The translations under genes and the position numbers were made by a program. DNA of 64,000 nucleotides, taken from positions 36,715-100,714 of the forward strand of contig JAJYYG010000007.1 of the NCBI GenBank assembly GCA_021801235.1, given 5' to 3'. Position 1 is the first letter of the stretch. Each line of letters begins with the position of its first letter. The stretch is from Actinomycetes bacterium (lineage in GTDB: Bacteria; Actinomycetota; Acidimicrobiia; Acidimicrobiales; RAAP-2). Below the pieces are notes generated by a model, which saw nothing but the letters and a program-made list of their open reading frames with translations, did not search any database and had not been told where the DNA came from. Shown here one piece after another: positions 1 to 64,000 of the stretch.

Positions 1-1
1 G

Positions 2-784
2 GCCGACAGCAAGGAACTGGTCGATCTCGACTACGCCCTGTTCATCTCATCGAGTGCGACCGACTCGATTCTCGACCAACTTGCATCTGCCATTGACGGG
101 CAACTCCTCGATGTCGATGCAATGAGGATGGCCATGGGTCGCGGGCACTCTCTTGATGTCGCGCTCTTTGGACGCATGGTTGCAGATACGCCCGATCTGA
201 ACGTCGATGCCGCCTGCCAAGTGGCCCACGCCATTTCAACACACCGCGTCTCATCAGAGTTTGACTTTTACACGACCGTGGACGATCTGGCCGGGTCGGA
301 CGAGTCCGGAGCCGCCATGATGGGTTACGTCGAGTTCAACTCGGCCACCCTCTACCGCTACGCCAACATCAGCCTGGGAAATCTCGGGGACAACCTGGGC
401 GATCCGTCGGCGGTGGCCGCGGGCGTGCGGTCCTTTGTAGAGGGGTTCGCCCGCAGCCTTCCCACCGGTCGACAGAACACGTTCGGGGCGATGACGCTGC
501 CGGACGTGGTCTTCGTGTCGTTGCGCACCGATCAGCCGGTCAGCCTTGTAGGAGCCTTCGAGGCACCGGTCGAAGCGACGGAAGGATACGTCACCGAGTC
601 TGCCCGGCGGATGGCTTCTCACGCGACGCACATTGACGATCTGTACGGATCGCCGCGCACGGATGGTTGGGCAACCTACATGCCTGTCGTCGGTGATCTA
701 AGCCAGCATTTCGGAGCGTCCTTGCCGTTCCCTGAACTGTTGGACCGGGTCGAGCTGGCCGCCCAGGCCCAGATGGCGTCATGA
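2..784 (+). CDS. cas7e: Type I-E Cascade backbone protein Cas7e (Cse4/CasC), 5' end outside window
   Basis: Open frame from base 2: ...ALFGRMVADTPDLNVDAACQVAHAISTHRVSSEFDFYTTVDDL..., a Cas7e signature; followed directly by cas5e. Confidence 0.95.
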   Translation, partial: ADSKELVDLDYALFISSSATDSILDQLASAIDGQLLDVDAMRMAMGRGHSLDVALFGRMVADTPDLNVDAACQVAHAISTHRVSSEFDFYTTVDDLAGSDESGAAMMGYVEFNSATLYRYANISLGNLGDNLGDPSAVAAGVRSFVEGFARSLPTGRQNTFGAMTLPDVVFVSLRTDQPVSLVGAFEAPVEATEGYVTESARRMASHATHIDDLYGSPRTDGWATYMPVVGDLSQHFGASLPFPELLDRVELAAQAQMAS

Positions 785-1542
785 GCGTGTTGACGATGCG
801 GCTCGGGGGCCCTCTTCAGGCATGGGGGTCGAGTAGCCGACTCGACCGGTATCGCCGGACGGAGGGGTTCCCGACGAAATCCGCCGTCGTCGGTCTGCTT
901 GCGGCGGCTCTCGGTCGAGCCCGCACCGACCCAATCGAGGACCTCGTGAGGTTGCGCTTCGGAGTGCGCGCGGATCGTCCTGGTGAGATATTGCGTGACT
1001 TCCACACGGTATCGAGCCTCTTCGACGAGAAGCGACGCTTCGACCCGGCCAACGGCCGGCTTCCCAAGGCAGGAGGCGGGTACCGCCGCGCTGCGACCAG
1101 CACCCAGGTGACCGAGCGGTTCTACCTGACCGACGCCTGCTTCGTGGCGGGGATGGAGGGCGACGGGCGGCTGCTCGACGACCTCGACCGCTCGCTCTCC
1201 TGTCCGGTCTTTCCGCCGTTCCTCGGACGGCGCTCGTGCCTGCCCGATGCTCCACTTCGCCTCGGCATCCACCCTGGTTCGCTGGTCGAGGTGCTTCGGA
1301 CTGTGCCGTGGCAGGGTGGGGTGCACGCCAAGTCTGCCGCTTATTCGGTGCGTTGCGAAGCTGTGATCGAGGATGAGCATGGGGACCGGGAACGCTTCGA
1401 CGAGGTGCGTAGTTTCGATCCGGTCAACCGATCCTACGGAAGGCGAAGGGTGCGCTACCACTACTTCGACGTGGTGAACTCAGCAAGCGAACGCGGCAGC
1501 CTCGACGGCCACGACCCGATGGCATTGCTGGGAGGGGACTGA
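781..1542 (+). CDS. cas5e: Type I-E Cas5e (CasD)
   Basis: MSVLTMRLGGPLQAWGSSSRLDRYRRTEGFPTKSAVVGLLAAALGR; overlaps cas7e stop (ATGA). Confidence 0.95.
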   Translation: MSVLTMRLGGPLQAWGSSSRLDRYRRTEGFPTKSAVVGLLAAALGRARTDPIEDLVRLRFGVRADRPGEILRDFHTVSSLFDEKRRFDPANGRLPKAGGGYRRAATSTQVTERFYLTDACFVAGMEGDGRLLDDLDRSLSCPVFPPFLGRRSCLPDAPLRLGIHPGSLVEVLRTVPWQGGVHAKSAAYSVRCEAVIEDEHGDRERFDEVRSFDPVNRSYGRRRVRYHYFDVVNSASERGSLDGHDPMALLGGD

Positions 1543-1543
1543 G

Positions 1544-2212
1544 ATGTTCCTCACGCGCTTCAACATCAACCCGAGAACCCAGTTGGGTGCGCGGTACCTC
1601 CAGAACCCCCAGAAAGTCCACGCAGCGATCTACGGGGCTATGCCGACGCAGCCTGTTGTCGCCACGGAAGGCGGTCGTCCCCTTTGGCGGATGGATTGTG
1701 GGGATCCCAAAGCACCGGTTCTTTGGGTTGTCAGCCCTGAACGACCAGCGTTCGATCAGCTCGCCGACGAGGCGGGTCGCGCTGTCGAAGGACGCGTGTA
1801 CCAGACGCGCCCGTATGTCTCGTTCCTCGATCGCCTCGCTGAAGGACAGGTGTACGCCTTCAGGCTCGCGGCCAACGCCTCGCATTCGGGCCGGAGATCC
1901 GTAGAATCCGCCCAAACCCAGCGCTTCGGTCACGTCACTGCAGCCCAGCAACTTCAGTGGCTCCTCCTTCGATCGGATCGGAGCGGGTTTTCGTTCCCTT
2001 TGACGGCAGGCAACGAACCGGACGTGGCTGTTGTCGGCCAGCGCAAGAGTTCCTTTCGGCGCGACCAAGGTCGGGTGACGGTGACAGTGAGCGAATTCAT
2101 GGGTCATCTCCAAGTGATCGACCCGAACGCATTGCGCCACACGTTGACCAGCGGGATCGGCCATGCCCGGGCCTACGGTTGTGGTTTGCTGACCCTTGCT
2201 CTTCCCCGATGA
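1544..2212 (+). CDS. cas6e: Type I-E crRNA endonuclease Cas6e (Cse3/CasE)
   Basis: MFLTRFNINPRTQLGARYLQNPQKVHAAIYGAMP...; C-terminal GIGHARAYGCGLLTLA glycine-rich loop. Confidence 0.93.
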   Translation: MFLTRFNINPRTQLGARYLQNPQKVHAAIYGAMPTQPVVATEGGRPLWRMDCGDPKAPVLWVVSPERPAFDQLADEAGRAVEGRVYQTRPYVSFLDRLAEGQVYAFRLAANASHSGRRSVESAQTQRFGHVTAAQQLQWLLLRSDRSGFSFPLTAGNEPDVAVVGQRKSSFRRDQGRVTVTVSEFMGHLQVIDPNALRHTLTSGIGHARAYGCGLLTLALPR

Positions 2213-3171
2213 CAATGAAGCAAAATGCGCCTGAGCGGCTGAGTGCCGACCGCGTCCCCTTATCGGCGTTGCAACCGATCTCGAAGCGGGCAAGTTTTGT
2301 CTACATGGAACGTTGTCTGGTGCATCGGGATTCCAACGCCATCGTCTCCATGAGCGAGTTGGGCACGGTCCACCTTCCGGCCGCTTCGTTCGGGACACTG
2401 CTGCTGGGTCCGGGTACAAGGATCACGCATCAGGCCATGAATCTCCTTAGTGAGTCCGGCGTTGTTACCTGCTGGGTTGGCGAAGGGGCTGTCCGTCTAT
2501 ACGCGAGTGCGCCCTCCCTGTCCAAGTCAACCAAACTCCTCCAGGAACAGGCACGGCTTGTCTCCAATCGATTGTCGCGACTTACTGTCGCCAGGCGCAT
2601 GTACGGGATGAGGTTCCCTGGAGAGGACGTGAGCAAGGCGACAATGCAGCAGCTACGCGGAATGGAAGGAGCGAGAATCCGCAAGGAGTACCGGGAACAA
2701 GCTGCGCGCACGGGGGTGGAATGGAAGGGTCGGCACTATGACCCGAGCAATTGGTCATCGGGGGACACCGTAAATCGGGCACTCTCCACTGCCAATAGTT
2801 GCCTGTACGGCGTGATCCACTCAGTGGTCGCAGCGGTGGGCTGTAGTCCAGGTTTGGGGTTCGTTCACACCGGACATGCGTTGGCGTTCGTGCACGACAT
2901 TGCAGATCTGTACAAGGTTGAGGTGACGATACCGGCCGCATTCGAGTCGGCTTCCGACGGAGATTCGGACTTGTCCTCCCGCGTTCGACGTGACGTGCGC
3001 GAGCATGTCCACCAAGGCCGCATCCTCGAAAGAGCTGTCGACGACATCCACTTCGTCCTGCGCGGGCACAAGGGAGGAGAGCAGGACGAGCCAGATCGCG
3101 ATGAGGTCGTCCTCTGGGATGATGAAGGGGGATCAGTCCAAGCGGGAGTGGCCTATGGCGATGAAACGTGA
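2209..3171 (+). CDS. cas1: Type I-E integrase Cas1e
   Basis: ATG at 2209 overlaps cas6e stop; LLGPGTRITHQAMNLLSESGVVTCWVGEGAVRLYA, EYREQAARTGVEWKGRHYDPSNW, GLGFVHTGHALAFVHDIADLYK. Confidence 0.95.
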   Translation: MTMKQNAPERLSADRVPLSALQPISKRASFVYMERCLVHRDSNAIVSMSELGTVHLPAASFGTLLLGPGTRITHQAMNLLSESGVVTCWVGEGAVRLYASAPSLSKSTKLLQEQARLVSNRLSRLTVARRMYGMRFPGEDVSKATMQQLRGMEGARIRKEYREQAARTGVEWKGRHYDPSNWSSGDTVNRALSTANSCLYGVIHSVVAAVGCSPGLGFVHTGHALAFVHDIADLYKVEVTIPAAFESASDGDSDLSSRVRRDVREHVHQGRILERAVDDIHFVLRGHKGGEQDEPDRDEVVLWDDEGGSVQAGVAYGDET

Positions 3172-3449
3172 CCGTTGTCGTGTTGACAGCGGTGCCGGTT
3201 GGGCTGCGGGGCCACCTCACTCGGTGGCTCTTTGAGGTTGCTCCGGGTGTCTTCGTTGGCCGTGTCACGGCCAGAGTGAGGGACCACCTCTGGTCCAGGA
3301 TCTGCAAATACGCAGGCGAGGGCGGCCGTGCTGTGATGATCCACTCGGCAAGGAACGAGCAGGGACTCTCCTTCAGAGTGCACGGTGGCACTTGGTCACC
3401 TGTTGATCTTGACGGATTGATGCTGATTCAGCGATCCTTGACAAGATAA
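3168..3449 (+). CDS. cas2: Type I-E Cas2e
   Basis: 93 aa, MTVVVLTAVPVGLRGHLTRWLFEVAPGVFVGRVTARVRDHLW; overlaps cas1 stop. Confidence 0.93.
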   Translation: MTVVVLTAVPVGLRGHLTRWLFEVAPGVFVGRVTARVRDHLWSRICKYAGEGGRAVMIHSARNEQGLSFRVHGGTWSPVDLDGLMLIQRSLTR

Positions 3450-3464
3450 CCCAGGTCACAAAGA

Positions 3465-5383
<1,919 letters not shown>

Positions 5384-50323: not shown

Positions 50324-51085
50324 ATGGACGACGGGTCGTTGCTCGACACCCTCCACCGTGCCGCGACCTCGGTCGCCGAGGTGCTGGCCGACCTGGAGGA
50401 CTGGGGGCTGGCCGGTACGAGGGCGGGGCAGTACCGGTCGGACCTGGCGGCCGACGAGGCGGCCCTCGCCGTTCTCCTCGACGCCGGCCTCGGCGTGATG
50501 TCCGAGGAGTCCGGACTGACCGAGGGGGAACGGGAGGTCGTCGTCGCCCTCGACCCCGTCGACGGCTCCACCAACGCGGCCCGGGGGATCCCCTGGTACG
50601 CGACCAGCCTCTGCGCCGTGGATGCATCCGGGCCGCGAGCGGCGGTGGTGGTGAACCAGGCGTCCGGCGTGCGCTTCGAGGCGAGCAGGGGCGGGGGTGC
50701 CCGGCGGGACGGGCACGCGATCCGGCCGTCGGGCTGCCGTCTCCTGGGTGAGGCGATCGTCGGGTTCTCCGGTTATCCGCCCCGCCACCTGGGATGGTCG
50801 CAGTACCGGGGGCTGGGGGCGGCAGCACTCGACCTCTGTGCGGTGGCCGAGGGAGCCCTGGATGGCTACGCCGTCGTCGGAGGGTCGTCACTCGGTCCGT
50901 GGGACTACCTGGGCGGGATGCTGGTGTGCACGGAGGCGGGGGCCGTCGTGGCCGAGGCCGGCGGTCGGGCGCTGGTGACATTGGACCACGGAGAGCGGCG
51001 CATGCCGATCGGGGCGGCCACGACGGGGCTGCTCGGGGAGCTGCTGGCGTCCATGGGCGGTAGCGTTGGCACCCCGGGCGCTTAG
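50324..51085 (+). CDS. Inositol monophosphatase family protein
   Basis: VMSEESGLTEGEREVVVALDPVDGSTNAARGIPWYATSL...GALDGYAVVGGSSLGPWDYLGGMLVCTEAGA. Confidence 0.94.
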   Translation: MDDGSLLDTLHRAATSVAEVLADLEDWGLAGTRAGQYRSDLAADEAALAVLLDAGLGVMSEESGLTEGEREVVVALDPVDGSTNAARGIPWYATSLCAVDASGPRAAVVVNQASGVRFEASRGGGARRDGHAIRPSGCRLLGEAIVGFSGYPPRHLGWSQYRGLGAAALDLCAVAEGALDGYAVVGGSSLGPWDYLGGMLVCTEAGAVVAEAGGRALVTLDHGERRMPIGAATTGLLGELLASMGGSVGTPGA

Positions 51086-51149
51086 CTCAGCTGGTCAGAG
51101 CAGCTGCCTTACAAGCAGCAGGTCGTGGGTTCGAGTCCCGCAGCGCCCA
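51076..51149 (+). tRNA. tRNA-Val (TAC); likely integration site of the downstream element
   Basis: GGGCGCT...AGCGCCCA acceptor, CTTACAA anticodon loop, GGTTCGAGTCC T-arm. Confidence 0.96.
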
Positions 51150-51301
51150 CAGTAAGTCCAGGTCAGAGTGGGTGTCGTCTATGGCCGGCGGGCGGGCGGT
51201 CGGGCCGTGGTTGCCACGCGGTTGCCACCGGGCGGACTTTTCTGGACGGGGACGGACGGGAGAGCCGGGACACTTCCGCGACGTCGGTGGATAGAGGTCG
51301 C

Positions 51302-51637
51302 ATGGAACTGACCTCGCTGACCAAGCCATCCACCGACAAGCTGTCCCCCGCCGCGGCGTTGGCCCGCCTCCGCCAGATCGAGGGGGCGATGTCCGCCGCC
51401 GTCCACGAGCTGTCGACGCTCCGGGCCGAGATGGAGAAGACGATGGTCTCGGCCTCGCCCTCTTCGTCGGCCAGCCTCTTGACCGTCGAGGAGGCGGCGG
51501 CGGAGCTTCGGGTCGGGCGGACCACCGTGTTCAACATGATCCAGTCCGGCGACCTTCGTGGTGTGCGTCTCGGGAAGAAGCGGTGCGTCACCCGGGCCAG
51601 TCTGGATGCCTTCGTCGCCAGCCTGAGCGCGGCCTGA
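51302..51637 (+). CDS. Excisionase-type HTH protein
   Basis: LLTVEEAAAELRVGRTTVFNMIQSGDLRGVRLGKKRCVTRASLDAFVASL, immediately upstream of integrase. Confidence 0.88.
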   Translation: MELTSLTKPSTDKLSPAAALARLRQIEGAMSAAVHELSTLRAEMEKTMVSASPSSSASLLTVEEAAAELRVGRTTVFNMIQSGDLRGVRLGKKRCVTRASLDAFVASLSAA

Positions 51638-51641
51638 GCGC

Positions 51642-52832
51642 ATGGCCGGGTCCAAGGCCGCCAACGGGCGGTCCTCCATCTATCGGGACGGGAATGGGAG
51701 ATGGCATGGCTACGTGAGCTTCGGTGCAGACGCCGTGGGCTCGCGCCGCCGCAAGCACGTCCGGGGCACCACCAAGCGGGAGGTGGCCGAGAAGGTCGAC
51801 CGACTGGAACGTCAGAGGTCCGGCGGCTTGACGGGCGGCCCGTCGACCACGGTCGGGCAGTGGTTGGAGGCATGGATCGACTACCGGTCCATGACGGTGC
51901 GTCCGTCGACGCTGCGCGGTTACCGGATCGACCGGTCGCACATCGAGCGGGAGCTGGGCACCGTCAAGCTGGACCGGCTGACCCCCGCCCACATCGACGG
52001 CCTCTGGTCGGGGGTCCTGGCCTCCGGCGCTGGCGCCGCCACCTGCGCCCATGTCCGGCGCACCCTCTCTGCTGCGCTGACCACGGCGGTGGATCGAGGC
52101 CTCATCGTCCGCAACCCCGTCCGTCTGTCGCCACCTCCGAGGTACGACCCAGAGGAGGTCGATCCACTCTCCGAGGCGGAGGCTCGACGTGTCCTGGCCG
52201 CCGCCGCCAACGACCGCAATGGCGTCCGCTGGTCGGTCGCCCTAGCCCTCGGGTTGCGCCAGGGGGAGGCCCTGGGGCTGCGCTGGGAGGACGTCGATCT
52301 GGAGGCTCGCCAAATCCGGGTACGACAGCAGTTGCAGCACCTCCAGTGGCGTCACGGATGCGACGGGCGGTGCGGGCGGACCCCTGGTCGTTGCCCCTCG
52401 CGGGTGGGCGGCGGTCCCGTGCTTGCTCCGGTGAAGTCCCGCGCCGGCCGCCGGCAGATAGCGATACCCCAGCCGATGGTCGAGCAACTCCGTACCCATC
52501 AGGCCCGCCAGGCCGGCGAGCGGCTGCGGGCGGGGAGCATGTGGCAGGGCTGGGGGCTGGTCTTCTCCGAAGAGGACGGGTCCCCCATCCGCAGCGAGTT
52601 CGACAGCCGTCAGTGGCACCGGCTTCTGGAGCGGGCCGGGGTCCGTCAGGCCCGACTGCACGACGCCCGGCACACCGCAGCGACGCTCCTACTCGTCCAA
52701 GGGGTGCCGACCGGAGTCGCCATGCGGATTCTCGGCCATGCGGACCCCAAGATGCTCAGCCGCTACAGCCACCTGGTCGAGCAGGCGCAGAGGGACGCCG
52801 CCGATCGGATGGGGACCGCCCTGTGGGGCTGA
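51642..52832 (+). CDS. Tyrosine recombinase/integrase
   Basis: ALGLRQGEALGLRWEDVDL; HDARHTAATLLLVQGVPTGVAMRILGHADPKMLSRYSHL. Confidence 0.96.
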   Translation: MAGSKAANGRSSIYRDGNGRWHGYVSFGADAVGSRRRKHVRGTTKREVAEKVDRLERQRSGGLTGGPSTTVGQWLEAWIDYRSMTVRPSTLRGYRIDRSHIERELGTVKLDRLTPAHIDGLWSGVLASGAGAATCAHVRRTLSAALTTAVDRGLIVRNPVRLSPPPRYDPEEVDPLSEAEARRVLAAAANDRNGVRWSVALALGLRQGEALGLRWEDVDLEARQIRVRQQLQHLQWRHGCDGRCGRTPGRCPSRVGGGPVLAPVKSRAGRRQIAIPQPMVEQLRTHQARQAGERLRAGSMWQGWGLVFSEEDGSPIRSEFDSRQWHRLLERAGVRQARLHDARHTAATLLLVQGVPTGVAMRILGHADPKMLSRYSHLVEQAQRDAADRMGTALWG

Positions 52833-52992
52833 CCGGGATGGCGGCATGTTGCAAAAGGTGTCGGGGCGGAGTCGCGGCCGAAAGTGGGTGGCTCCCGACG
52901 TCCTGCGGGCACTAGGCGATTTTGCAGAACGAGTGGGCGTCGCAGCCGAATCTAACCGGCTCCAAGAGACGGCCCAGAAGTGACCGCTACGC

Positions 52993-55900
52993 ATGGTCTG
53001 GGGTATGGCCCAGAGACGCAGGAACATGCCCGAGCGGGACGTCACCCCGGTCATCGTGGTCGTGGGGGTGGTCGGCATCGGTGTGGCAGCGTGGTTCCGG
53101 CTCCCCGGGCTCCCCGTTCTCTGGGTGGCCCTGATCGTCGCTGCCTGGATGATCCAGGCCCCTCCGCTGACGGGCAAGAAGGACGCCAACGGGTACCCGT
53201 CGCCGGCCAATGCCGCCGAGGAGCGCAAGCTCTCCACCTACCGCTCCGCCAAGGAGCTCCAGACGTCCCTCATCCTCCCGATCCAGGACATGACCCCTTC
53301 GTGGCCCGTCCGGGCGGCCTGGTTGGCCGGGCTCTGGGCGGCGGCGGTCGGCTACCTGTTCCCGGTGATCGGCTCCAAGTCCATCCCCCGCTCCGACGGG
53401 AGGATCATCGACGCCGTGGCGGCCTTCGTCATGGTGGTGGCAGTCAGCGGGTCCAGGAGACGGGCACTGGGATCGGACAACCCGGGTGTCCGGCTGGACT
53501 CGTTGAAGGACACCTTCGACGAGCACCCGCTCGGGGTGGTGGTCGGCTCCATCTTCGGGTTCGGCCTCGGGTTCGGCGCCGGGGTGGTGGCCACCCTGGC
53601 CGCCTACCGCTACGGCCCCGGGTTCGGCCAGCCGGCCGCCCACTCCCATGTCCACCCGGGCCTCCCGATGTGGCACCCGCTGGTCTTGTGGCTCCTCTTC
53701 GGGCTGGGTGGGGCGTTCGCTCTCGTCGGCCCGCTCTGGAAGCAGGTCGCACTCGCCGACTGGCGGGTGGTCACCGATGCGAGGGAGCAGTGGAAGAGCC
53801 GATGGGAGAGCCTGAAGTACGACATCCCCCCAGTGCTGGTGAGCAGGAAGACGACGAACTACCAGTCGGCGGGCGGGCCGGCCGAGGTGGTGGTCGACAC
53901 GTTCGAGGCTCCCGCCCACCTGGGCGCCATCGAGTTCACGAAGCTGGAGAAGCGGCTCGACCCGATGGTCGGTGCCGGGATGAAGGTGGCGGTGCTCTCG
54001 GCGCCGGACACCGACGGAGTGAACCCGATCCCGGGGACCTGGAATGGGACGAGGTTCCAGGTGGTGGCGTGGCCGGCGCTCAGCCCGCCCGACCTCTCGG
54101 CACCGGGGGTCATGCCCGACGACGGGGCGAGGCGGCGCAGGTCGCAGGAGGCCGAGACCCAGGACGAGGCTGACTGTCGGCTGGCCGACCTGTGGATCCG
54201 ATCGGCACTCGCCTGGGTGGCTCACGGCATGGGGGTCTTCCCCGAGCCGGCCAACGTGTCGACGGAGGACATCCACGGTGGGGGCGTAGAGAGCGACGAC
54301 CTGATGGACAAGCTCCACCAGGCAGCCACCTCGTCGAGGGATGGCCGGGTGGTGGAGCTTGTCCGCCCCTCCTTTGTGAAGTCAGCCCTCGGCTCGCTCT
54401 GGAGTGCGATGAAGGTCCCCCCGGGCGGTCCGGAGGGCACGCTGGCAGCAGCCATCCGGGAGGAGGGCCAAGACGGTAGCCAGGCCCGCCCCATGCCCGA
54501 CGGCGGCTTCGACGACCAACCCGAGTCGTACGGGGAGCCGGAGCCGGGGATCGAGCCGGAACCGCAGAGCGGAGCCGTCTGGAAGACGGACTGGACGTAT
54601 CCGGTCAACTTGGGGGCCAAGTACCTCCGGGAGAACTCGACGGACGCCCTCGCTTCCACCGTGCTCGCCACGACCGTCATCGACCACCGCAGCGGGACGA
54701 TCTACTTCGGAGCGAGCGAAGACGGCGATAACGTCGACCCGGCGTACCGGGTGGTGGTCGCCAACCTCCTTCTGGAGGACCGATGGCGGGCGGTGTGGAC
54801 CAACACCTTGAAGCAGGGGGCGAACATCCCCAAGGTCCAGCCGAAGACGGTGGCGCAGGCAGAGCTCGCCAACCGGTCCGTCGTCCACCGCACCGCGTTT
54901 GCGGTCAACGAGGGGAACAACCCCCGGGAGTACAAGGGCGTCGAGGAGAACCTGGCCAGCGCGCTGAAGGGGGCGAAGTTCGTCGCCATCACCGGCTGGT
55001 ACGACGCCAACCAGGGCGGTCGACCCGGGGACCGCCATCCTCAGGCCCTCTGCGTCTACTGGTCCAACGACCCGGTCCCGTTGACGCCGAAGTGGCTGGT
55101 CCCCTCGGCGTCCCCCGCCAACCGGTGGGTCCTGTCGGGGATCGTCAACCAGGTGTTCGCCACCATCAAGCTGCCCCCACCGGAGGTGGTCGACACCCGC
55201 CCGCTCACCAATCTCGGCGCCGATGTTCACGCGTGGGAGGTGGCACTGCGCCTCTACGGCAACGTCACCACCGGACAGCTCCGGGGGCAGGGCCAGCGGA
55301 TCGCCGAGTCGTTGGCCGTTCCCTGGGTACGGGTGACCGACTCTGACGACGGCTGCCTGATGTACTTCGGCGGGGTGCTGGCCGACGAGGACCTGGCCAG
55401 GTCCTCCGATCGGGAGCTCATCACCTCGCTCGACTGGGAGCAGGCGTTCTTGGCGTCGGGCGTCGTCGGGTCGACCGGGCGGGTTCCCGTGCTGGCCGCG
55501 ACCGACGCCATGCCGGCGAACCGGGCCGTCATGGTCCTCGACTTCGTCCTCCCGCCGGGTCTCTCGGTGTCCGCTGTGCGCGCCGCCACCCCCAAGTTGC
55601 GGACCTCGACGGGGAACGCCTACGTGGAGGTGCTCGACTCGCCCAATGGCCCGACCCAGGTCCGCATCCGGGCGTGCAGGGAGAACCCCCTCCCCAACTC
55701 GGTCCCGTTCGACTTCGCAGTGGCGGACCAGGTGGATGGGTATGCGTTCGCCACCGGGGTGGACGGCGAGCCGGTCTCTTTCGTCCCGACCCGGGCGGTA
55801 CACGCGGCCATCATCGGTGGCACCGGATCGGGGAAGTCGACGACGGCCCGGTCGGTGCTCTACGGGGCGGCGATCAAGGGGTCGGACATCTACATCGTCG

Positions 55901-57030
55901 ACCCGAGCAAGGGGGCCGCCGACTTCCAGTTCATCCGGCCCTACGCCAAGGGGATCTTCACGACCGTCGCCGACTCCGCCGCCGCGCTGCGGGCCATCTA
56001 CCAACAGGTCGTGCAGCGCAAGGACGTCAACGCCGCGCATGGCGCCGGCTCGTACCTCGAACTGCCCGAGGCCATCCGACCTCCCCCGATCACGGTGATG
56101 ATCGACGAGTTCACCTCCCTCATCACCGCCGACAAGGTCGAACGCAGGGAGATCGACGACCCGGAGTTGGAGGCGGAGCGGCTGGCCCAACTGGCGGACG
56201 CCAACGATCGGCGGACCATCGGGGTGTACACGGGCAAGCTGGCCCGTGAGGCCCGCAGTGCTGGTGTGACGGTGCTGCTCGGGACCCAGAAGCTCATGGC
56301 CGCCTCCATGGAGGGTATCGCCGGCGGCGGGGACCTGAAGTCGAACCTCTCGCGCATCCTCTTGGGGAGCACGTCCCCGGGCGACCGGATGTCGGCGCTC
56401 CGGTCGTTCGACTCGGCCCCCGACATCGGGTCGCCCGTCCCCATCGGGAGGGGTATCTGGGAGTCGATCGAGTCGGTGGGCCAGGTGATCCAGGGGTGGT
56501 ACGCCACCTCTGAGCAGTTTGCCGAGGAGATCGCCCGGCGACTCCAGCCGCTCGCCGCCGACGAGGTGCTCGACCTCACCCCCTTCCTCAACCGCCGCGC
56601 AGACACGGGGATGGCGGTGCTGGATCCGGACGGCGAAGCGGCCGTCCAATCCCTGGCGCCGACCCGGCCGGACGCACCCGACGAGGTCGACCTCGGAGAG
56701 CTGGAGTTCAGCTTGGACGACCTGGACGACTTGGATCGTCCGGACGGCCTGGAAGCGGGACCTTTCGACTCGTCGGTCCCAGCCCCAGTGCCGGAGCTGC
56801 CCCCGCAGTCGGAGCAGGACCCGTGGGATGTCCCCGACCCGCCACCGGAAACCGAGATTGCCGGCGACTGGGCGCTCGACTGGGCTGTCCAGTCAGATCC
56901 CGTCCAGTCAGATCCCGTGTCGGCGATCGAGACCGACGACGACCCGTTCGCCGAGCCTCCCGCCTTCCGTCTGCCGGCCGCAGCAGCGAGGACGACGGCG
57001 TCGAAGCCCGACGACGACCCGTTCGCCTAA
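52993..57030 (+). CDS. Large FtsK/TraB-like DNA translocase
   Basis: N-terminal TM segments; Walker A AAIIGGTGSGKSTTARSVLYG; Walker B ITVMIDEFTSLI; VTVLLGTQKLMA; 1345 aa. Confidence 0.88.
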   Translation: MVWGMAQRRRNMPERDVTPVIVVVGVVGIGVAAWFRLPGLPVLWVALIVAAWMIQAPPLTGKKDANGYPSPANAAEERKLSTYRSAKELQTSLILPIQDMTPSWPVRAAWLAGLWAAAVGYLFPVIGSKSIPRSDGRIIDAVAAFVMVVAVSGSRRRALGSDNPGVRLDSLKDTFDEHPLGVVVGSIFGFGLGFGAGVVATLAAYRYGPGFGQPAAHSHVHPGLPMWHPLVLWLLFGLGGAFALVGPLWKQVALADWRVVTDAREQWKSRWESLKYDIPPVLVSRKTTNYQSAGGPAEVVVDTFEAPAHLGAIEFTKLEKRLDPMVGAGMKVAVLSAPDTDGVNPIPGTWNGTRFQVVAWPALSPPDLSAPGVMPDDGARRRRSQEAETQDEADCRLADLWIRSALAWVAHGMGVFPEPANVSTEDIHGGGVESDDLMDKLHQAATSSRDGRVVELVRPSFVKSALGSLWSAMKVPPGGPEGTLAAAIREEGQDGSQARPMPDGGFDDQPESYGEPEPGIEPEPQSGAVWKTDWTYPVNLGAKYLRENSTDALASTVLATTVIDHRSGTIYFGASEDGDNVDPAYRVVVANLLLEDRWRAVWTNTLKQGANIPKVQPKTVAQAELANRSVVHRTAFAVNEGNNPREYKGVEENLASALKGAKFVAITGWYDANQGGRPGDRHPQALCVYWSNDPVPLTPKWLVPSASPANRWVLSGIVNQVFATIKLPPPEVVDTRPLTNLGADVHAWEVALRLYGNVTTGQLRGQGQRIAESLAVPWVRVTDSDDGCLMYFGGVLADEDLARSSDRELITSLDWEQAFLASGVVGSTGRVPVLAATDAMPANRAVMVLDFVLPPGLSVSAVRAATPKLRTSTGNAYVEVLDSPNGPTQVRIRACRENPLPNSVPFDFAVADQVDGYAFATGVDGEPVSFVPTRAVHAAIIGGTGSGKSTTARSVLYGAAIKGSDIYIVDPSKGAADFQFIRPYAKGIFTTVADSAAALRAIYQQVVQRKDVNAAHGAGSYLELPEAIRPPPITVMIDEFTSLITADKVERREIDDPELEAERLAQLADANDRRTIGVYTGKLAREARSAGVTVLLGTQKLMAASMEGIAGGGDLKSNLSRILLGSTSPGDRMSALRSFDSAPDIGSPVPIGRGIWESIESVGQVIQGWYATSEQFAEEIARRLQPLAADEVLDLTPFLNRRADTGMAVLDPDGEAAVQSLAPTRPDAPDEVDLGELEFSLDDLDDLDRPDGLEAGPFDSSVPAPVPELPPQSEQDPWDVPDPPPETEIAGDWALDWAVQSDPVQSDPVSAIETDDDPFAEPPAFRLPAAAARTTASKPDDDPFA

Positions 57031-57327
57031 CTCCAATCAATCGCGGGAATCGCTGGAGGTGGTCCCTGCACATTGGGAGACCGTTCATCGGTACTTCGTT
57101 GTCCATGTTGGACTTGTGGTGACCGGTGGAACCCGTCACCACGGGGGTTGCTCTGGTAGTTTCCAGCTCGTAGGTGCCCTCTTCTGTCAGGAACCGGCTG
57201 GCATGCAACCCGGGTTCTCCCCGCCAAGACGGAACGTACGCGGACACGCGCCGATCAGGTCAAGCGGTCCCATAAGCGATTGGGGTGAGTAGTAGATCGA
57301 GAGAGAGACGGTAGAGAGGAATCGGTC

Positions 57328-58155
57328 ATGAAGAACGGAAACCTGAAGAGGAACATCGGACGGATCGCGGGAGCGGCGACGATCGTCGCTGGCATCGCAC
57401 TGATCACCGTGCCGTCGCCGACCGGTGCAGTCACCGCCACCGTCGCAGATTCGGCCCCGGCTCCTCGGCTCGCCACGCCGGGGGCCACTCCGGTCGAGCA
57501 GCTCATGGGAACCCAGACTATCCAGTACCTGAACCAGGAGCGGGCCGCCGTCGGCAGCCCTCCCCTCCAGGAGAACGAGTACCTGGACGCGATGGCCCAG
57601 GCGTACGTGAACTACGAGACCAACCTGAACAACCCGCCCGCAGGCGGCGACGGCAACAACCGCTGGGACGACCCCAGTGCTCAGTGGGAGTCGCAGTACA
57701 TCTCCACCCACCCGTGCACCGAAACGTACCCGACATGCCCGACGGCAGCACTCGTGAACGGCACCACTCCGGGAGGCCCTCCGACGTACCAAGGGGCGAC
57801 GACCAGTACACAATTCGGCGGGGACCTGTATACCGCAGGCGACATCGTCCTCGGGTACATGTCCTCCATCCCCCACCAGGAGAACGAGCTCACCGCTGCC
57901 TGGACGCTGGCCGGCTCAGGTACTGCATGCGTCTCCGGAACTCAGATGAACGTGATGGCCTTCAGCTACGACAGCATCAACAAGTTTCCGTCTGAGCTCT
58001 TCTACCCGCCCATCACGATGGCACAGGCCGAGGCGGTCATCCCGCCGAACTCCGCCACCGGCGCTAGCTGCGACGGAAGCGGCGCCCCGACTCCTCCGCC
58101 GAACCCTGGAGGGGTGCGAACAGTTGTCACACCTCCGATCCACACTGAGCGGTGA
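57328..58155 (+). CDS. Secreted CAP/SCP-like domain protein
   Basis: Signal peptide MKNGNLKRNIGRIAGAATIVAGIALITV; TIQYLNQERAAVGSPPLQENEYLDAMAQAYVNYE. Confidence 0.65.
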   Translation: MKNGNLKRNIGRIAGAATIVAGIALITVPSPTGAVTATVADSAPAPRLATPGATPVEQLMGTQTIQYLNQERAAVGSPPLQENEYLDAMAQAYVNYETNLNNPPAGGDGNNRWDDPSAQWESQYISTHPCTETYPTCPTAALVNGTTPGGPPTYQGATTSTQFGGDLYTAGDIVLGYMSSIPHQENELTAAWTLAGSGTACVSGTQMNVMAFSYDSINKFPSELFYPPITMAQAEAVIPPNSATGASCDGSGAPTPPPNPGGVRTVVTPPIHTER

Positions 58156-58742
58156 TGAACTTGGCTGAGTGGGCCGACTCCCAGAACATCCATCCCCAGA
58201 CCGCCTATCGGTGGTTCCGACAAGGCCGGCTGCCGGTCCCCGCACGGCGGGTGGGCGGGCTCATTCTGGTCGGGAGCCTGTCTGGCGCTGGCCCGCAACC
58301 TGACGGGACGACCGCCGTCTATGCCCGCGTTTCCTCGGCTGACCAGAAGGCCGACCTTGACGCCCAGGTAGCGAGAGTGACTGCTTGGGCCACCTCCAAT
58401 GGCTACTCGGTCAATCAGGTGGTGACCGAGGTCGGCTCTGCACTCAACGGGAGGCGGCGGAAGTTCCTGGGACTCCTTCGAGACCCCACGGTGACGACCA
58501 TCATCGTCGAACACCGGGACCGCTTCGCCAGGTTCGGGGCAGAGTACGTGGCCGGCGCCCTGGATGCCGGGAATCGCCGCATGGTGATAGTCGATGACGG
58601 AGAAGTCGACGACGACCTGGTGCGGGACATGACCGAGCTGATGACCTCGCTGTGCGCTCGCCTCTACGGCCGGCGTTCGGCCGCTCACCGGGCGGCCAAG
58701 GCTGTCGAAGTGGCCACGAGCGGCGGTGGTCACGATGGCTGA
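58152..58742 (+). CDS. tnpA: IS607-type serine recombinase TnpA
   Basis: HTH AEWADSQNIHPQTAYRWFRQGRLPVPARRVGGLILV; catalytic TAVYARVSSADQKADLDAQVARVTAWA; VEHRDRFARFGAEYV. Confidence 0.93.
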   Translation: MMNLAEWADSQNIHPQTAYRWFRQGRLPVPARRVGGLILVGSLSGAGPQPDGTTAVYARVSSADQKADLDAQVARVTAWATSNGYSVNQVVTEVGSALNGRRRKFLGLLRDPTVTTIIVEHRDRFARFGAEYVAGALDAGNRRMVIVDDGEVDDDLVRDMTELMTSLCARLYGRRSAAHRAAKAVEVATSGGGHDG

Positions 58743-60204
58743 GGTGGCGGCGCTCAACGGAACAGCGGCCGAGGTGGCGAGCACGCCCAAGAAACGCTCC
58801 CCTGGGGGGAAGTTCGCCATCCCCGATGGATGGATCGCTCGGGGATTCATGTTCGAGGTCGCCTGGCCGGACGACCCCGAGGCCGCCTCCCGGGTCCGCT
58901 CGCACTTCGGTGGTCGCCGGTTCGCCTACAACTGGGCGCTCGGCCAGGTGAAGGCCGACATGGATGCGAAGAAGGTCGATCCCTCCCACACATCGGTGCC
59001 GTGGAACCTCTACGCCCTGCGCAAGCGCTTCAACGCCGAGAAGACGACCGTCGCCCCGTGGTGGGGTGAGAACTCGAAGGAGGCGTACTCCACGGGGATC
59101 GCCGACCTGTGTGTCGCCCTGAAGAACTGGTCTGACTCAAAATCCGGCAAGCGCAAGGGTAGAAAGGTCGGGTTCCCGAAGCTCCGGTCCCGCAGGAAAG
59201 ACCAGGCCAGGGTGCGTTTCACCACCGGGGTCATGCGGGTCGAGCCGGATCGGCGGACCATCACCTTGCCGGTGGTGGGTGCCCTCCGGTCGATGGAGAA
59301 CACCCGCCGCCTCGAACGCCTGGTCCACTCGGGTAAGGCCCGAGTCCTCAACGCCACCCTGAAAGAGAGATGGGGACGGCTGTTTGTCTCGTTCTCCTGT
59401 CTCGTCGAGGACCACCCACGCCCGGGTCCGACCAAGGATGGCCGTGCGGGGGTCGACCTCGGGCTACGGGTGCTCGCCACCATCGCCGACTCGAACGGCG
59501 ACATCACCGAAGTCGAGAACCCCGCTCCACTGCGGGCGACGCTCGTCGAGCGCCGTCGGGTGGGCCGCTCACAGATCAGGCGTATCCCCGGATCCCGAGG
59601 ACATGATGCGGCGAAAGCCAAGCTCGCATCCCTCGACCGGAGATGCGTCTCCCTGCGCAAGCAGGCATCCCACCAGCTCACCACGATGCTGGTGGACACC
59701 TACAGCGAGGTGGTCATCGAAGATCTCGACCTCGCTGCCATGAAAAAGAGCATGGGCCGGCGGGCATTCCGGCGGTCCGTGTCTGACGCTGCACTCGGCC
59801 AGATCAGGCCACAGCTCACCTACAAGATGGCGTGGAGAGGAACCACCCTGACGGTCGCCGACCGCTGGTTCTCCTCATCGAAGATCCATCACGCGTGTGG
59901 TTGTCGGTTGATCGAGCCGAAGAAGCTCGCCAAACAACTCGTCTGTGTGTTGACCGGCGAGTTGGTTGACCGAGACGCCAATGCAGCAAAAAACCTCCGC
60001 GACTGGCCGGACATTGCCAGTTGCAGCTCAGTTGGAGCTGCGGCCCCGAAGCCCAGCAGTCCCACCGGTAGCGGTGGGGGACTCGGCTCTGATGTCGGAC
60101 CATCCGGCACCGGAGGAGGGAGCGTAAGACCTTCGCAGTCTCGGAAGGCCGCCTCCGGTGAGGCCAGAACCCGCAAGGGAACCCCGAGAAGGGGTGTGGC
60201 ATGA
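58735..60204 (+). CDS. tnpB: TnpB RNA-guided nuclease-family protein (IS607-associated)
   Basis: RuvC-I GVDLGLRVLATIAD, RuvC-II VVIEDLDLAAM, RuvC-III VDRDANAAKNL; ATG 58735 or GTG 58726. Confidence 0.93.
   Translation: MAEVAALNGTAAEVASTPKKRSPGGKFAIPDGWIARGFMFEVAWPDDPEAASRVRSHFGGRRFAYNWALGQVKADMDAKKVDPSHTSVPWNLYALRKRFNAEKTTVAPWWGENSKEAYSTGIADLCVALKNWSDSKSGKRKGRKVGFPKLRSRRKDQARVRFTTGVMRVEPDRRTITLPVVGALRSMENTRRLERLVHSGKARVLNATLKERWGRLFVSFSCLVEDHPRPGPTKDGRAGVDLGLRVLATIADSNGDITEVENPAPLRATLVERRRVGRSQIRRIPGSRGHDAAKAKLASLDRRCVSLRKQASHQLTTMLVDTYSEVVIEDLDLAAMKKSMGRRAFRRSVSDAALGQIRPQLTYKMAWRGTTLTVADRWFSSSKIHHACGCRLIEPKKLAKQLVCVLTGELVDRDANAAKNLRDWPDIASCSSVGAAAPKPSSPTGSGGGLGSDVGPSGTGGGSVRPSQSRKAASGEARTRKGTPRRGVA
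60181..60195 (+). ncRNA. Candidate terminal hairpin of an omega-RNA/reRNA overlapping the tnpB 3' end
   Basis: ACCCC-GAGAA-GGGGT perfect 5-bp stem at the tnpB stop region. Confidence 0.35.
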
Positions 60205-60215
60205 GTGACCGCTCA

Positions 60216-61397
60216 CTATCGATCACTCGGCTGCAACGGTTCGATGATGGTTTCCATCATCGCCGACAAGGTCTGGGCGACCTGGGCCGGGGTGACCCCG
60301 AGAGACTCCACGCCTCGCTGGACGAGGGAGACGACGGTCTGGTGCCAGGCCAGCTCGTCCTTGGCCCGCTGCACTGCCGGCTTGGGCTCGACGGCCTCTC
60401 CGGCCCGGTACTCGGACCCGCACGCCTCGGTGGTCACGTCGACCCACCGGCGGACCAGCCCCCCGACGGCATGGCTCCCACCGACCTCCGGGTAGGAGGC
60501 GAGGAGCGCACTCCTCAGGGCCGAGCAGTGGGGCTGTACGGGCGGGGGTGAGGGGGTGAGGGCGGCGAGTGCGATGCGCTGGCTGGCGATCGCGGGGACC
60601 TCGGCGATCTCCGAGAGCTCTGCCAAGGACCATCCCTCGAACACCACTGCCAGGCCGCGGTAGCCATGGTCCATGTCCTCGATGGTGTCCATCACGTCGT
60701 CCTGGACCGCACACTCGTCCCCCTCCAACCGTGCGAGCAGGGCGACCCGGTTGGGGAGGTAGACGCACCGGCGGGGGGAGGACAGCCCATAGGTGCGGCA
60801 GAGCGTCCTGGCTGAGAGGTGGATCCGCTCGTTCGCGCGACGGTTGCTGGCGGTCTTGGCGTAGGCGGCGGCAGCGGAGAGGAACGACTCCGCCCTCTCC
60901 TCCCCCTGGGGTCCACTCCACTCGGAGTCGACGCACGAGGAGTCGACGATCTTCCGGTCGAACGGGTCGACGGGGATAGGCCGGGACTTGTGCCCTCGGC
61001 CGAGTTCCAGGACGTGGAAGCGGGCGAAGGGAGACCGGAGCAACTGGCGAGACCAGCCGGAAATGCTGGCCCCGTTGGCAATCCTCTGGACGTCGAGGTT
61101 GGGATTGGTGCCCGCGATCTTGTCGATGAGGAGGGCGCGCAGGTGCTCCTCGGCGTCGGCTTGGAGCTGCCGGTTCTCCGAGACGATCTCTCGACTGACG
61201 GAGGCCGGGATGTCCTCGGTCAATACGATCGAAGCGATCTTCCATCGGCCCTCTGCCTCGGTCAGCTCCCCCGCCAGCACTGCTTGGGCCACGACCCGGG
61301 CCGCCTCGTCGTTGGCGTCGCTGATCGGGCTGTGCCGGGCGGCTGGCCGAGTGGCTGAGCGAACAGTGGACCGGGTTCCTGCGGAGGTGCCGTTCAT
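60216..61397 (-). CDS. Element-encoded hypothetical protein
   Basis: MNGTSAGTRSTVRS...DANDEAARVVAQAVLAGELTEAEGRWKIASIVLTEDIPASVSREIVSENRQLQADAEEHLRALLIDKIAG... Confidence 0.75.
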   Translation of the reverse strand: MNGTSAGTRSTVRSATRPAARHSPISDANDEAARVVAQAVLAGELTEAEGRWKIASIVLTEDIPASVSREIVSENRQLQADAEEHLRALLIDKIAGTNPNLDVQRIANGASISGWSRQLLRSPFARFHVLELGRGHKSRPIPVDPFDRKIVDSSCVDSEWSGPQGEERAESFLSAAAAYAKTASNRRANERIHLSARTLCRTYGLSSPRRCVYLPNRVALLARLEGDECAVQDDVMDTIEDMDHGYRGLAVVFEGWSLAELSEIAEVPAIASQRIALAALTPSPPPVQPHCSALRSALLASYPEVGGSHAVGGLVRRWVDVTTEACGSEYRAGEAVEPKPAVQRAKDELAWHQTVVSLVQRGVESLGVTPAQVAQTLSAMMETIIEPLQPSDR

Positions 61398-61615
61398 GCC
61401 CACCCTGTCGGGGGCGCCGGCGGTATCTGCAACGTCCGGCCGATGGCTGCGCAGATGGCGCACACGAACTCAGCGGGAGCCCGGCTCCCCTGTTGGTCGC
61501 GGTGGATCGACCACCGCTTCGCCCCGCACTCGCACCGCTGTGGCACGCAGGCCGACATCCTCGGACGGGGTGGTGCCGGGTGCTGCGGTTGCTGCGGTTG
61601 CCCCCTGTACTCCAT
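61394..61615 (-). CDS. Small zinc-ribbon-like hypothetical protein
   Basis: CVPQRCECGAKRWSIHRDQQGSRAPAEFVCAICAAIG (CxC...CxxC); overlaps start of downstream gene. Confidence 0.6.
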   Translation of the reverse strand: MEYRGQPQQPQHPAPPRPRMSACVPQRCECGAKRWSIHRDQQGSRAPAEFVCAICAAIGRTLQIPPAPPTGWA

Positions 61616-61696
61616 GCCCGGTCAGAGGGCGGCAGTTGTCTCGGATTCGAGAGAATTTCTCTGCTGGCAGTCGGTCAGGTTGCGTGGCGGCGAGCC

Positions 61697-62680
61697 CTAG
61701 TCGGCCTGGTCGGCGTAGTTCTCGATTAGCTCGCTCGGGGCTGCCACTCCGACGGGGAAGAGGCGTGCTCCGACGGCGGCGGCGGCTCGCGCCGGGCCGA
61801 GGTCGTCCGACGGGTAGGCGCGGTTGTAGTCGGCCACGAAGTCGGCGTAGCTGGCATGCCGGCCGGTGTTGTATAGGTGCCGGACCTTCGGTCCGATGTG
61901 GGGGTCGCCGATCACCCTTCGGACCTCCTCCTCGGCGTCTCGCCTGAGGGCAATCGAGACGTACCGCAGGGGGTCGACCATCCGGAAGGTGCCCGGCTGC
62001 ATGCACCGGTCGATCAGCCGGGTGACCCGGCTCCCCGGCTCCCCGGGGCGCCCGTAGACGAGCGAGTCGACTACGCCCTCCAGCCCGATGTCGTCGAGGA
62101 CCTGGGGTACGAACAGTGCGTCGGTCTCCCCGCTGATCTCGGCAGCGACGTACCTCCGGGCCTTCGAGGCGACGGCCTCCACGTAGGTCCGGAGGTGTTC
62201 CATTAGGCCCCAGTTCGCCTGGGATCCCAGCTCGACCAGGCTGTTCAGCCTGCTCATCGCCAGGCCGTAGGACAAGAGGGGGAGATGGAGGTCGACTGGC
62301 ATGTCGGGGTGCTGGTGGCGCCCCTCGTCCCAGTCGTCGTACGCCTCGGGGCTGGCAGTCACCGTGATCGTCCCAGCGAGCTGGACCCCGAGACCGGAGG
62401 CCGACCAGGGGACCTGGAGGGACTCACCCCGCCGGACGGCAATCACGTTCTGCTCCCAGTCGATCCTCACCGGGAACGAGAGCGAGCCACCGGTGTCCCG
62501 GTCGCGCTGCTTCTTGCCCATCGGGGTCTTCGGAGCGACCCACGCCCACGTCGGGAGGGCGGCGATCCCCATCGCCGCCCTCGACGACCGGAGATGGGGA
62601 CGGAGGTCGGCTGCGGCCCGGCCGGCCATGGCGGCGCCGACGAGGTCACAGAAGTGGGAGTTCCAGGGGTGTCGGGGCAT
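61697..62680 (-). CDS. Element-encoded hypothetical protein
   Basis: MPRHPWNSHFCDLVGAAMAGRAAADLRPHLRSSRAAMGIAALPTWAWVAPKTPMGKKQRDRDTGGSLSFPVRIDWEQNVIAVRRGES... Confidence 0.7.
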   Translation of the reverse strand: MPRHPWNSHFCDLVGAAMAGRAAADLRPHLRSSRAAMGIAALPTWAWVAPKTPMGKKQRDRDTGGSLSFPVRIDWEQNVIAVRRGESLQVPWSASGLGVQLAGTITVTASPEAYDDWDEGRHQHPDMPVDLHLPLLSYGLAMSRLNSLVELGSQANWGLMEHLRTYVEAVASKARRYVAAEISGETDALFVPQVLDDIGLEGVVDSLVYGRPGEPGSRVTRLIDRCMQPGTFRMVDPLRYVSIALRRDAEEEVRRVIGDPHIGPKVRHLYNTGRHASYADFVADYNRAYPSDDLGPARAAAAVGARLFPVGVAAPSELIENYADQAD

Positions 62681-62691
62681 CTGGGCCGCGG

Positions 62692-63177
62692 TCAGCGGTC
62701 TGCGTCCGAGCTGACGGCGGCGATCCGGTCGGCGGCCCGGCCGGGGGTGAAGTAGCAGTCCCGCTCGACCGGACCCCAGCGGGTCGCGACCCCCTCCAGC
62801 TCCCGGAGGTCGACGTACCCCCACTCCGGGAATCCCATCCCCAGGTCGCAGTGGCCGAACGCCAACCCCGTCTCCCGGTCGAGCTCGGCGACGTACCAAT
62901 CGCAGTTCGAGGAGAAGTAGTGGAGTGTGACCACCTTGTCCGGGAAGGGGATCTCCTCGCCAGAGTAGAGCGGCGGCGTGGCCTCGACGTCGGACTGTCG
63001 CAGGAACTTGTGCCCCCGCCGCCTACGTTGCGACTCCCCGTCAGGGAAGATGCTCTCGACGGCCTGCTTGCCGGAGAGCATCCCGGCCGGGTCGAGGTCG
63101 AGGTCGGGCTCCGGGTTCGCCTGTGGGGCGAACTGCCCGCCGTTCGGGGTCCCTCGTGGTTGGCGCACAGCGATCAT
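62692..63177 (-). CDS. DUF2958-like protein
   Basis: KVVTLHYFSSNCDWYVAELDRETGLAFGHCDLGMGFPEWGYVDLRELEGVATRWGPVERDCYFTPGR. Confidence 0.75.
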   Translation of the reverse strand: MIAVRQPRGTPNGGQFAPQANPEPDLDLDPAGMLSGKQAVESIFPDGESQRRRRGHKFLRQSDVEATPPLYSGEEIPFPDKVVTLHYFSSNCDWYVAELDRETGLAFGHCDLGMGFPEWGYVDLRELEGVATRWGPVERDCYFTPGRAADRIAAVSSDADR

Positions 63178-63222
63178 GCGCTGATAGATGGCGGCAGATC
63201 ACGGGAATTCGAGAATTGGCGG

Positions 63223-63248
63223 GGAATTCTTGCGAACGGAAGAATTCC
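63223..63248. promoter_or_regulatory. Perfect 9-bp inverted repeat upstream of cas3 (candidate operator)
   Basis: GGAATTCTT-GCGAACGG-AAGAATTCC. Confidence 0.6.
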
Positions 63249-63311
63249 AGGGCCGCTGGATTCAAACTGACCCACTACCCGATGGTTACACCCACATGCT
63301 CTACTGGTCGG

Positions 63312-64000
63312 GTGGCCGCCCCGAACGCAGTACCGCATACTGTGTCCGTCCGTCCTGACCTCGGGATCTGGGGGAAGTGGGGAGACGACGGGGCTTTCCG
63401 CTACCCCCTCCTTGCCCATCTGCTCGACTCGGCGGCGACGGCGCAGGCGATCTTCCGGTCGTGGATGCCCGAGCGCCTGGTTCTCCAGATGGACGGCAGG
63501 CTCGCCGGAACCGGTTGCTCGTTCGAGCAGGTCGTCGTCACCGCAGCGGGACTGCACGACCTCGGCAAGATCAGTCCAACCTTCCAAGGGCAGCTCGTCG
63601 GGAGGCGTGCAGGCGAATTTGCAGCCCAGACGGAGCTACTCCGCGAATCGGGCTACTGGATCCCCTCTGGGCCGCTCCTTCGTCCCTCTCCAGGGAGGGA
63701 GCGCGAGTTCGTGGCAAGGCACGAAGTGGCGTCGACGGTACTCCTGCGCCAGGTCACCGGCGCCGAACCAACCGGCTTCGACTGCGTGGTTGGCGGCCAC
63801 CACGGAAAGTGGCGTTCGTTCGGCGGGTTGGAGTGCGACCCAGGCACATACCCCGTGGCTTGCGAGTTCTACGATCGTCTTCTCGGCGACGAGCGGTGGC
63901 GGGCACAAGCCGACGCACACACCGTCGCACTGCTCGACGTGCTCGGACAGGCGGCCTGCGACACCCGCATCGAGTTCGACCGCGCCGCCGTCCCCATCCT
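63312..64000 (+). CDS. cas3: Type I CRISPR helicase-nuclease Cas3 (N-terminal HD domain), 3' end outside window
   Basis: GTG 63312, frame open to window end: IWGKWGDDGAFRYPLLAHLLDSAATA...AAGLHDLGKISPTFQGQLV...FVARHEVAS...VVGGHHGKW (HD-nuclease H, HD..K, H, HH); absent from supplied ORF track. Confidence 0.9.
   Translation, partial: MAAPNAVPHTVSVRPDLGIWGKWGDDGAFRYPLLAHLLDSAATAQAIFRSWMPERLVLQMDGRLAGTGCSFEQVVVTAAGLHDLGKISPTFQGQLVGRRAGEFAAQTELLRESGYWIPSGPLLRPSPGREREFVARHEVASTVLLRQVTGAEPTGFDCVVGGHHGKWRSFGGLECDPGTYPVACEFYDRLLGDERWRAQADAHTVALLDVLGQAACDTRIEFDRAAVPI

Follow-up and report, generated by a model that had tools for sequence, protein, structure and literature searches.

The right end of the window holds an element that begins at the 3′ end of a tRNA-Val gene and runs to the contig end, where a cas3 gene starts. 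The window is the whole 64,000-nucleotide stretch analyzed here, bases 36715–100714 of contig C85 (100714 bp) in a draft genome of 176 contigs and 88% completeness. Its last base is the end of C85, so nothing to the right of position 64000 can be read in this assembly. ARAGORN and Pfam reproduced the gene order given in a preliminary description of this DNA, namely tRNA-Val, xis, integrase, translocase, IS607, orphan genes, DUF2958 and a cas3 HD domain, and placed a gene for a secreted CAP-domain protein between the translocase and IS607:

51076–51150, + strand: tRNA-Val(TAC) (ARAGORN, Rfam), with the element’s attL junction at its 3′ end
51302–51637, + strand: xis-like HTH_17 protein, 111 aa (Pfam HTH_17, 1e-11)
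51642–52832, + strand: tyrosine integrase, 396 aa (Pfam Phage_integrase, 5.2e-20)
52993–57030, + strand: FtsK/TraB-like DNA translocase, 1345 aa (Pfam FtsK_SpoIIIE, 5e-5, a weak match)
57328–58155, + strand: secreted CAP-domain protein (Pfam CAP, 1.8e-5), reading frame ending inside IS607
about 58108–60240, + strand: IS607-family insertion (Pfam), its ends fixed by IS607 copies in genomes G002, G004 and G036
58152–58742, + strand: IS607 serine recombinase (resolvase; Pfam)
58726–60204, + strand: IS607 TnpB (Pfam)
60216–61463, − strand: orphan protein A, up to 415 aa, no Pfam family, 3′ end entering IS607
61697–62677, − strand: orphan protein B, 326 aa, no Pfam family, homologues on plasmids
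62692–63177, − strand: DUF2958 protein, 161 aa (Pfam, 5e-14)
63285–64000, + strand: cas3, HD-domain part only (Pfam Cas3_HD, 2e-21), open at the contig end

Base composition follows the pattern described earlier, with a GC content of about 0.68 at 51–64 kb and 0.60–0.65 over the left cas genes (1–4 kb) versus about 0.73 in the 6–51 kb core.

Comparison with relatives places the left boundary of the element at the last base of the tRNA. In five relatives (G001–G004 of the same genus and G018 of the same family), DNA similarity to the left of the tRNA runs to that base and stops at window position 51150/51151; the tRNA 3′ end is therefore the junction between chromosome and element. The xis-like gene and the integrase gene adjoin it. 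No attR follows in the visible 12.8 kb, as the preliminary description had also found: a search of positions 51231–64000 returned no second tRNA-Val 3′ end (best 33-mer match 20/33) and no recurring 11-mer of tRNA-Val. That description had reasoned that cas3 may lie inside the element, a placement that an attR before 63.2 kb would have countered; none was found there. Because 51231–64000 holds no attR and synteny stops at the tRNA 3′ end, cas3 sits on the element side of the one junction that can be seen. A cas3 at the same locus in genomes without the integrase or FtsK gene, which would also have spoken against carriage by the element, was found in none, but contig ends interrupt the sites in G001 and G004. 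Outside 51231–64000, the only matches to the tRNA end in the assembly were a second tRNA (contig C16) and an unrelated sequence with three mismatches (C64), and neither an attR nor the right chromosomal flank was located. Contig C42 was considered as the right flank and rejected, as no attR was found on it.

Three loci (L037 1379–1440, L038 19132–19179 and L043 194–206) show that insertions have repeatedly used the tRNA-Val 3′ end in this genus: the tRNA end is doubled in G001 and G002, and G004 has a split tRNA and an attR-like copy. In G004, the intact tRNA stands at the edge of contig C67, and contig C53 carries the attR-like copy, which is 48 bases long and matches the tRNA end at 44 of them; after this copy comes the sequence found directly behind the tRNA in G002. 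The G004 site is used by another insertion.

Searches of 72,556 plasmid records connect the element to actinobacterial megaplasmids. The translocase has homologues in 16 records, all from Actinomycetota, with the best matches (36–40%) on megaplasmids of 375–607 kb from Pseudarthrobacter, Arthrobacter, Paenarthrobacter and Curtobacterium. Significant matches to protein B occur in eight of the 72,556 records, and all eight also carry the translocase; these Micrococcales megaplasmids are mutually related and so do not count as independent cases. A search of 395 other genomes of the class found no protein B. Of the four best plasmid matches of DUF2958, three lie on megaplasmids of this same group, and protein A has weak homologues on two Curtobacterium megaplasmids. 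Neither cas3 nor protein B nor the translocase had a relative among viral contigs. The predicted cargo is megaplasmid-like, because homologues of the translocase, protein B, DUF2958 and protein A are found on the same megaplasmid group, and a cargo of this kind would fit the absence of an attR within 13 kb. The integrase is 40% identical to an integrase on a 14.6-kb Saccharopolyspora plasmid record.

This affinity changes the picture of a conjugative integrative element proposed earlier. Integration at tRNA-Val stands, but the cargo resembles that of 375–607 kb actinobacterial megaplasmids more than that of a small AICE-like element. One translocase is the only candidate transfer gene that Pfam reveals on the visible part, and its nearest NCBIfam model, plasmid_TraB, is matched weakly, at 35 bits (5.6e-9) where the cut-off is 800. 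The same protein (52993–57030) matches the PADLOC model mad8 of the MADS defense system (2.5e-12), which probably reflects shared ATPase ancestry. Separately, the N-terminal stretch of DUF2958, RQPRGTPNGGQFAPQA (63080–63177, − strand), resembles N termini at five places on the Pseudarthrobacter megaplasmid pACHL01 (L049 24689–31110), perhaps as a shared tag.

The cas3 gene at the right edge encodes a type I-E-like HD domain. About 238 codons are visible before the contig ends, forming an intact open frame in the window, and the HD-domain residues H, HD and HH are common to this protein, the Euzebya Cas3 and the host Cas3. The product passes NCBIfam TIGR01596 cas3_HD (49.7 bits, cut-off 43.45), and its best PADLOC model is Cas3e (5.4e-20). 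The nearest protein found is the type I-E Cas3 of Euzebya pacifica plasmid pEDY32-46I (NZ_CP031166, 571 kb), at 40% identity; the tree fork uniting the two is not strongly supported. Among 396 genomes of the class there is no close relative, none of the eight protein B megaplasmids appears by name among the Cas3 matches listed, and no other piece of the gene occurs in the assembly. The preliminary description spoke of an element carrying a CRISPR-Cas locus. The cas3 HD domain is indeed on the element side of the junction, but a complete locus did not emerge: the sole cas7e in this 88% complete assembly is the host’s own, contig C85 ends inside the right cas3, and the sole array is the host’s, with no repeats next to the right cas3 (63170–63420).

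The left cas genes belong to the host’s own chromosomal I-E locus and are not part of the element. This operon is complete and lies on the same contig, to the left of the element and outside it:

L005 13500–19001, left of the window on the same contig: host cas3, cas8e and cas11e
1–3449: host cas7e, cas5e, cas6e, cas1e and cas2e
3465–5321: host CRISPR array, 31 repeats and 30 spacers

In the tree, the host Cas3 groups with chromosomal homologues of its order. We rejected the right cas3 as a repeat-driven duplicate of the left one: the proteins are about 34% identical and blastn found no shared DNA between the genes. None of the 30 host spacers matches the element, and against plasmids they gave only one 25-nt match at E=4, with no convincing target. 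An 18-nt match between spacer 7 and pACHL01 was dismissed as chance (20/33 over the full spacer).

A second, independent assembly preserves the order from IS607 to cas3 at 100% identity. Sequence JAJZAC010000148.1 (5353 bp, coverage 1.98) belongs to MAG FK5.bin72, which represents another genus of the family, and is 100% identical to window positions 60180–63405. Past 63405 it joins, inverted, the stretch from window 60240 to 58111 (L019 3224–3226), and contains two identical copies of the 2.1-kb IS607, which is present once in the genome studied here. Other copies of IS607 also have their right end at the base corresponding to 60240, so the simplest interpretation is that a second copy, inverted, has entered cas3 after about codon 40; a mere chimera is less likely. 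Such identity implies that the element was shared recently or, alternatively, that the contig was misbinned. In the window itself, the convergent CAP gene and gene A reach the ends of IS607 (58108 and 60240) with no stop codon of their own, a hint of some deletion or rearrangement connected with IS607.

These observations are probably best explained by a large, partly megaplasmid-related element that is integrated at the tRNA-Val 3′ end and continues past the contig with a I-E operon. Recombination by the tyrosine integrase would have placed a large mobile element in the tRNA-Val 3′ end. Beyond the contig end, the element would continue with a plasmid-type I-E effector operon (cas8e-cas11e-cas7e-cas5e-cas6e), perhaps also with cas1-cas2 and an array. 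Going by the protein families, crRNA-guided Cascade would recruit the right Cas3 to degrade competing plasmids or phages, and this interference may act separately from the host’s chromosomal I-E system. A complete second CRISPR system and inter-element conflict stand as hypotheses. A bolder version, in which a megaplasmid relative with a complete second I-E system has integrated and IS607 switches cas3 off in part of the population, is possible though doubtful.

Three rival accounts were weighed against this one. The element might carry a decaying or partial cas remnant, either cas3 alone or a truncated locus with no working effector complex, that IS607 inactivates further. The visible cas content of a single gene, the lack of a second cas7e or array in the assembly and the IS607 copy interrupting cas3 after about codon 40 in JAJZAC010000148.1 all agree with decay, as does the finding that plasmids carry incomplete cas loci more often than chromosomes do (PMC9071438). 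Yet the window cas3 is an intact open frame with conserved HD-domain residues, and, with an assembly only 88% complete and a contig that stops at this very point, the missing genes may simply be unassembled; we consider a remnant unlikely. Misassembly through the repeated IS607 is a further step down in plausibility and strikes us as improbable. Here, 60241–64000 (protein A, protein B, DUF2958 and cas3) would come from elsewhere, such as a free plasmid. An element of 2.1 kb with two identical copies in the FK5 sequence could mediate such a join, the one at 58108 rests on one contig only, and the CAP gene and gene A lack their own stops at the IS607 ends. Against this, only one IS607 copy is seen in the genome, and the translocase to its left and protein B to its right both lead to one and the same group of plasmids.

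It is more improbable still that the element ends before cas3, at a diverged attR between DUF2958 and cas3, and that cas3 belongs to a second chromosomal CRISPR locus. About 110 bp separate the two genes and the right chromosomal flank was not located in the assembly, which leaves room for such a boundary. However, this interval lacks a tRNA-end repeat, whereas the attR-like site of G004 keeps 44/48 bases, and genes with megaplasmid homologues reach up to cas3. The host Cas3 is of another lineage, and the 396 genomes of the class offer no close relative of the right Cas3.

An integrated, megaplasmid-related element with its own I-E operon would put two interference systems in one cell. If the operon is complete, a resident and a mobile I-E system with separate origins would coexist, making their compatibility, their cross-talk and competition between mobile elements testable. 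The combination of megaplasmid genes with a tRNA-integrating integrase also suggests that large plasmids of this group, or parts of them, can live in the chromosome.

Several known systems resemble this element in part. AICEs use a tRNA site, a xis-like gene, a tyrosine integrase and a TraB-like translocase. The first three have counterparts here, but the present translocase, at about 1345 aa, is only weakly TraB-like, and the cargo appears megaplasmid-like. None of the Pfam families of a replication initiator (RepSA, RepAM or Prim-Pol) was found in the ten visible proteins of the element. On the megaplasmids of Pseudarthrobacter (pACHL01), Arthrobacter, Paenarthrobacter and Curtobacterium the translocase and protein B recur, in part together with DUF2958 or protein A. 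Unlike the element, these 375–607 kb replicons are extrachromosomal, carry the shared genes far apart and are absent among the Cas3 matches listed. Euzebya pacifica pEDY32-46I is likewise a large actinobacterial replicon, with the nearest Cas3 (40%) and a weak translocase match; protein B was not found on it, including next to its cas3. There, on a free plasmid, Cas3 heads a complete I-E operon with repeats, whereas here the element is integrated and only cas3 is visible.

Plasmids and ICEs are already known to carry CRISPR-Cas, and the present case is incomplete in the assembly. Plasmid-borne systems are biased towards plasmid targets (PMC9071438), and a Streptomyces linear plasmid has been described with a type I-E system (PMC12231136). 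On ICEs and other integrated elements, type I-C occurs in Pseudomonas aeruginosa and type III-A in Staphylococcus aureus (PMC9841420). Those elements and the one described here are alike as integrated mobile elements with cas genes; they differ in being of other subtypes, in other hosts and with complete systems.
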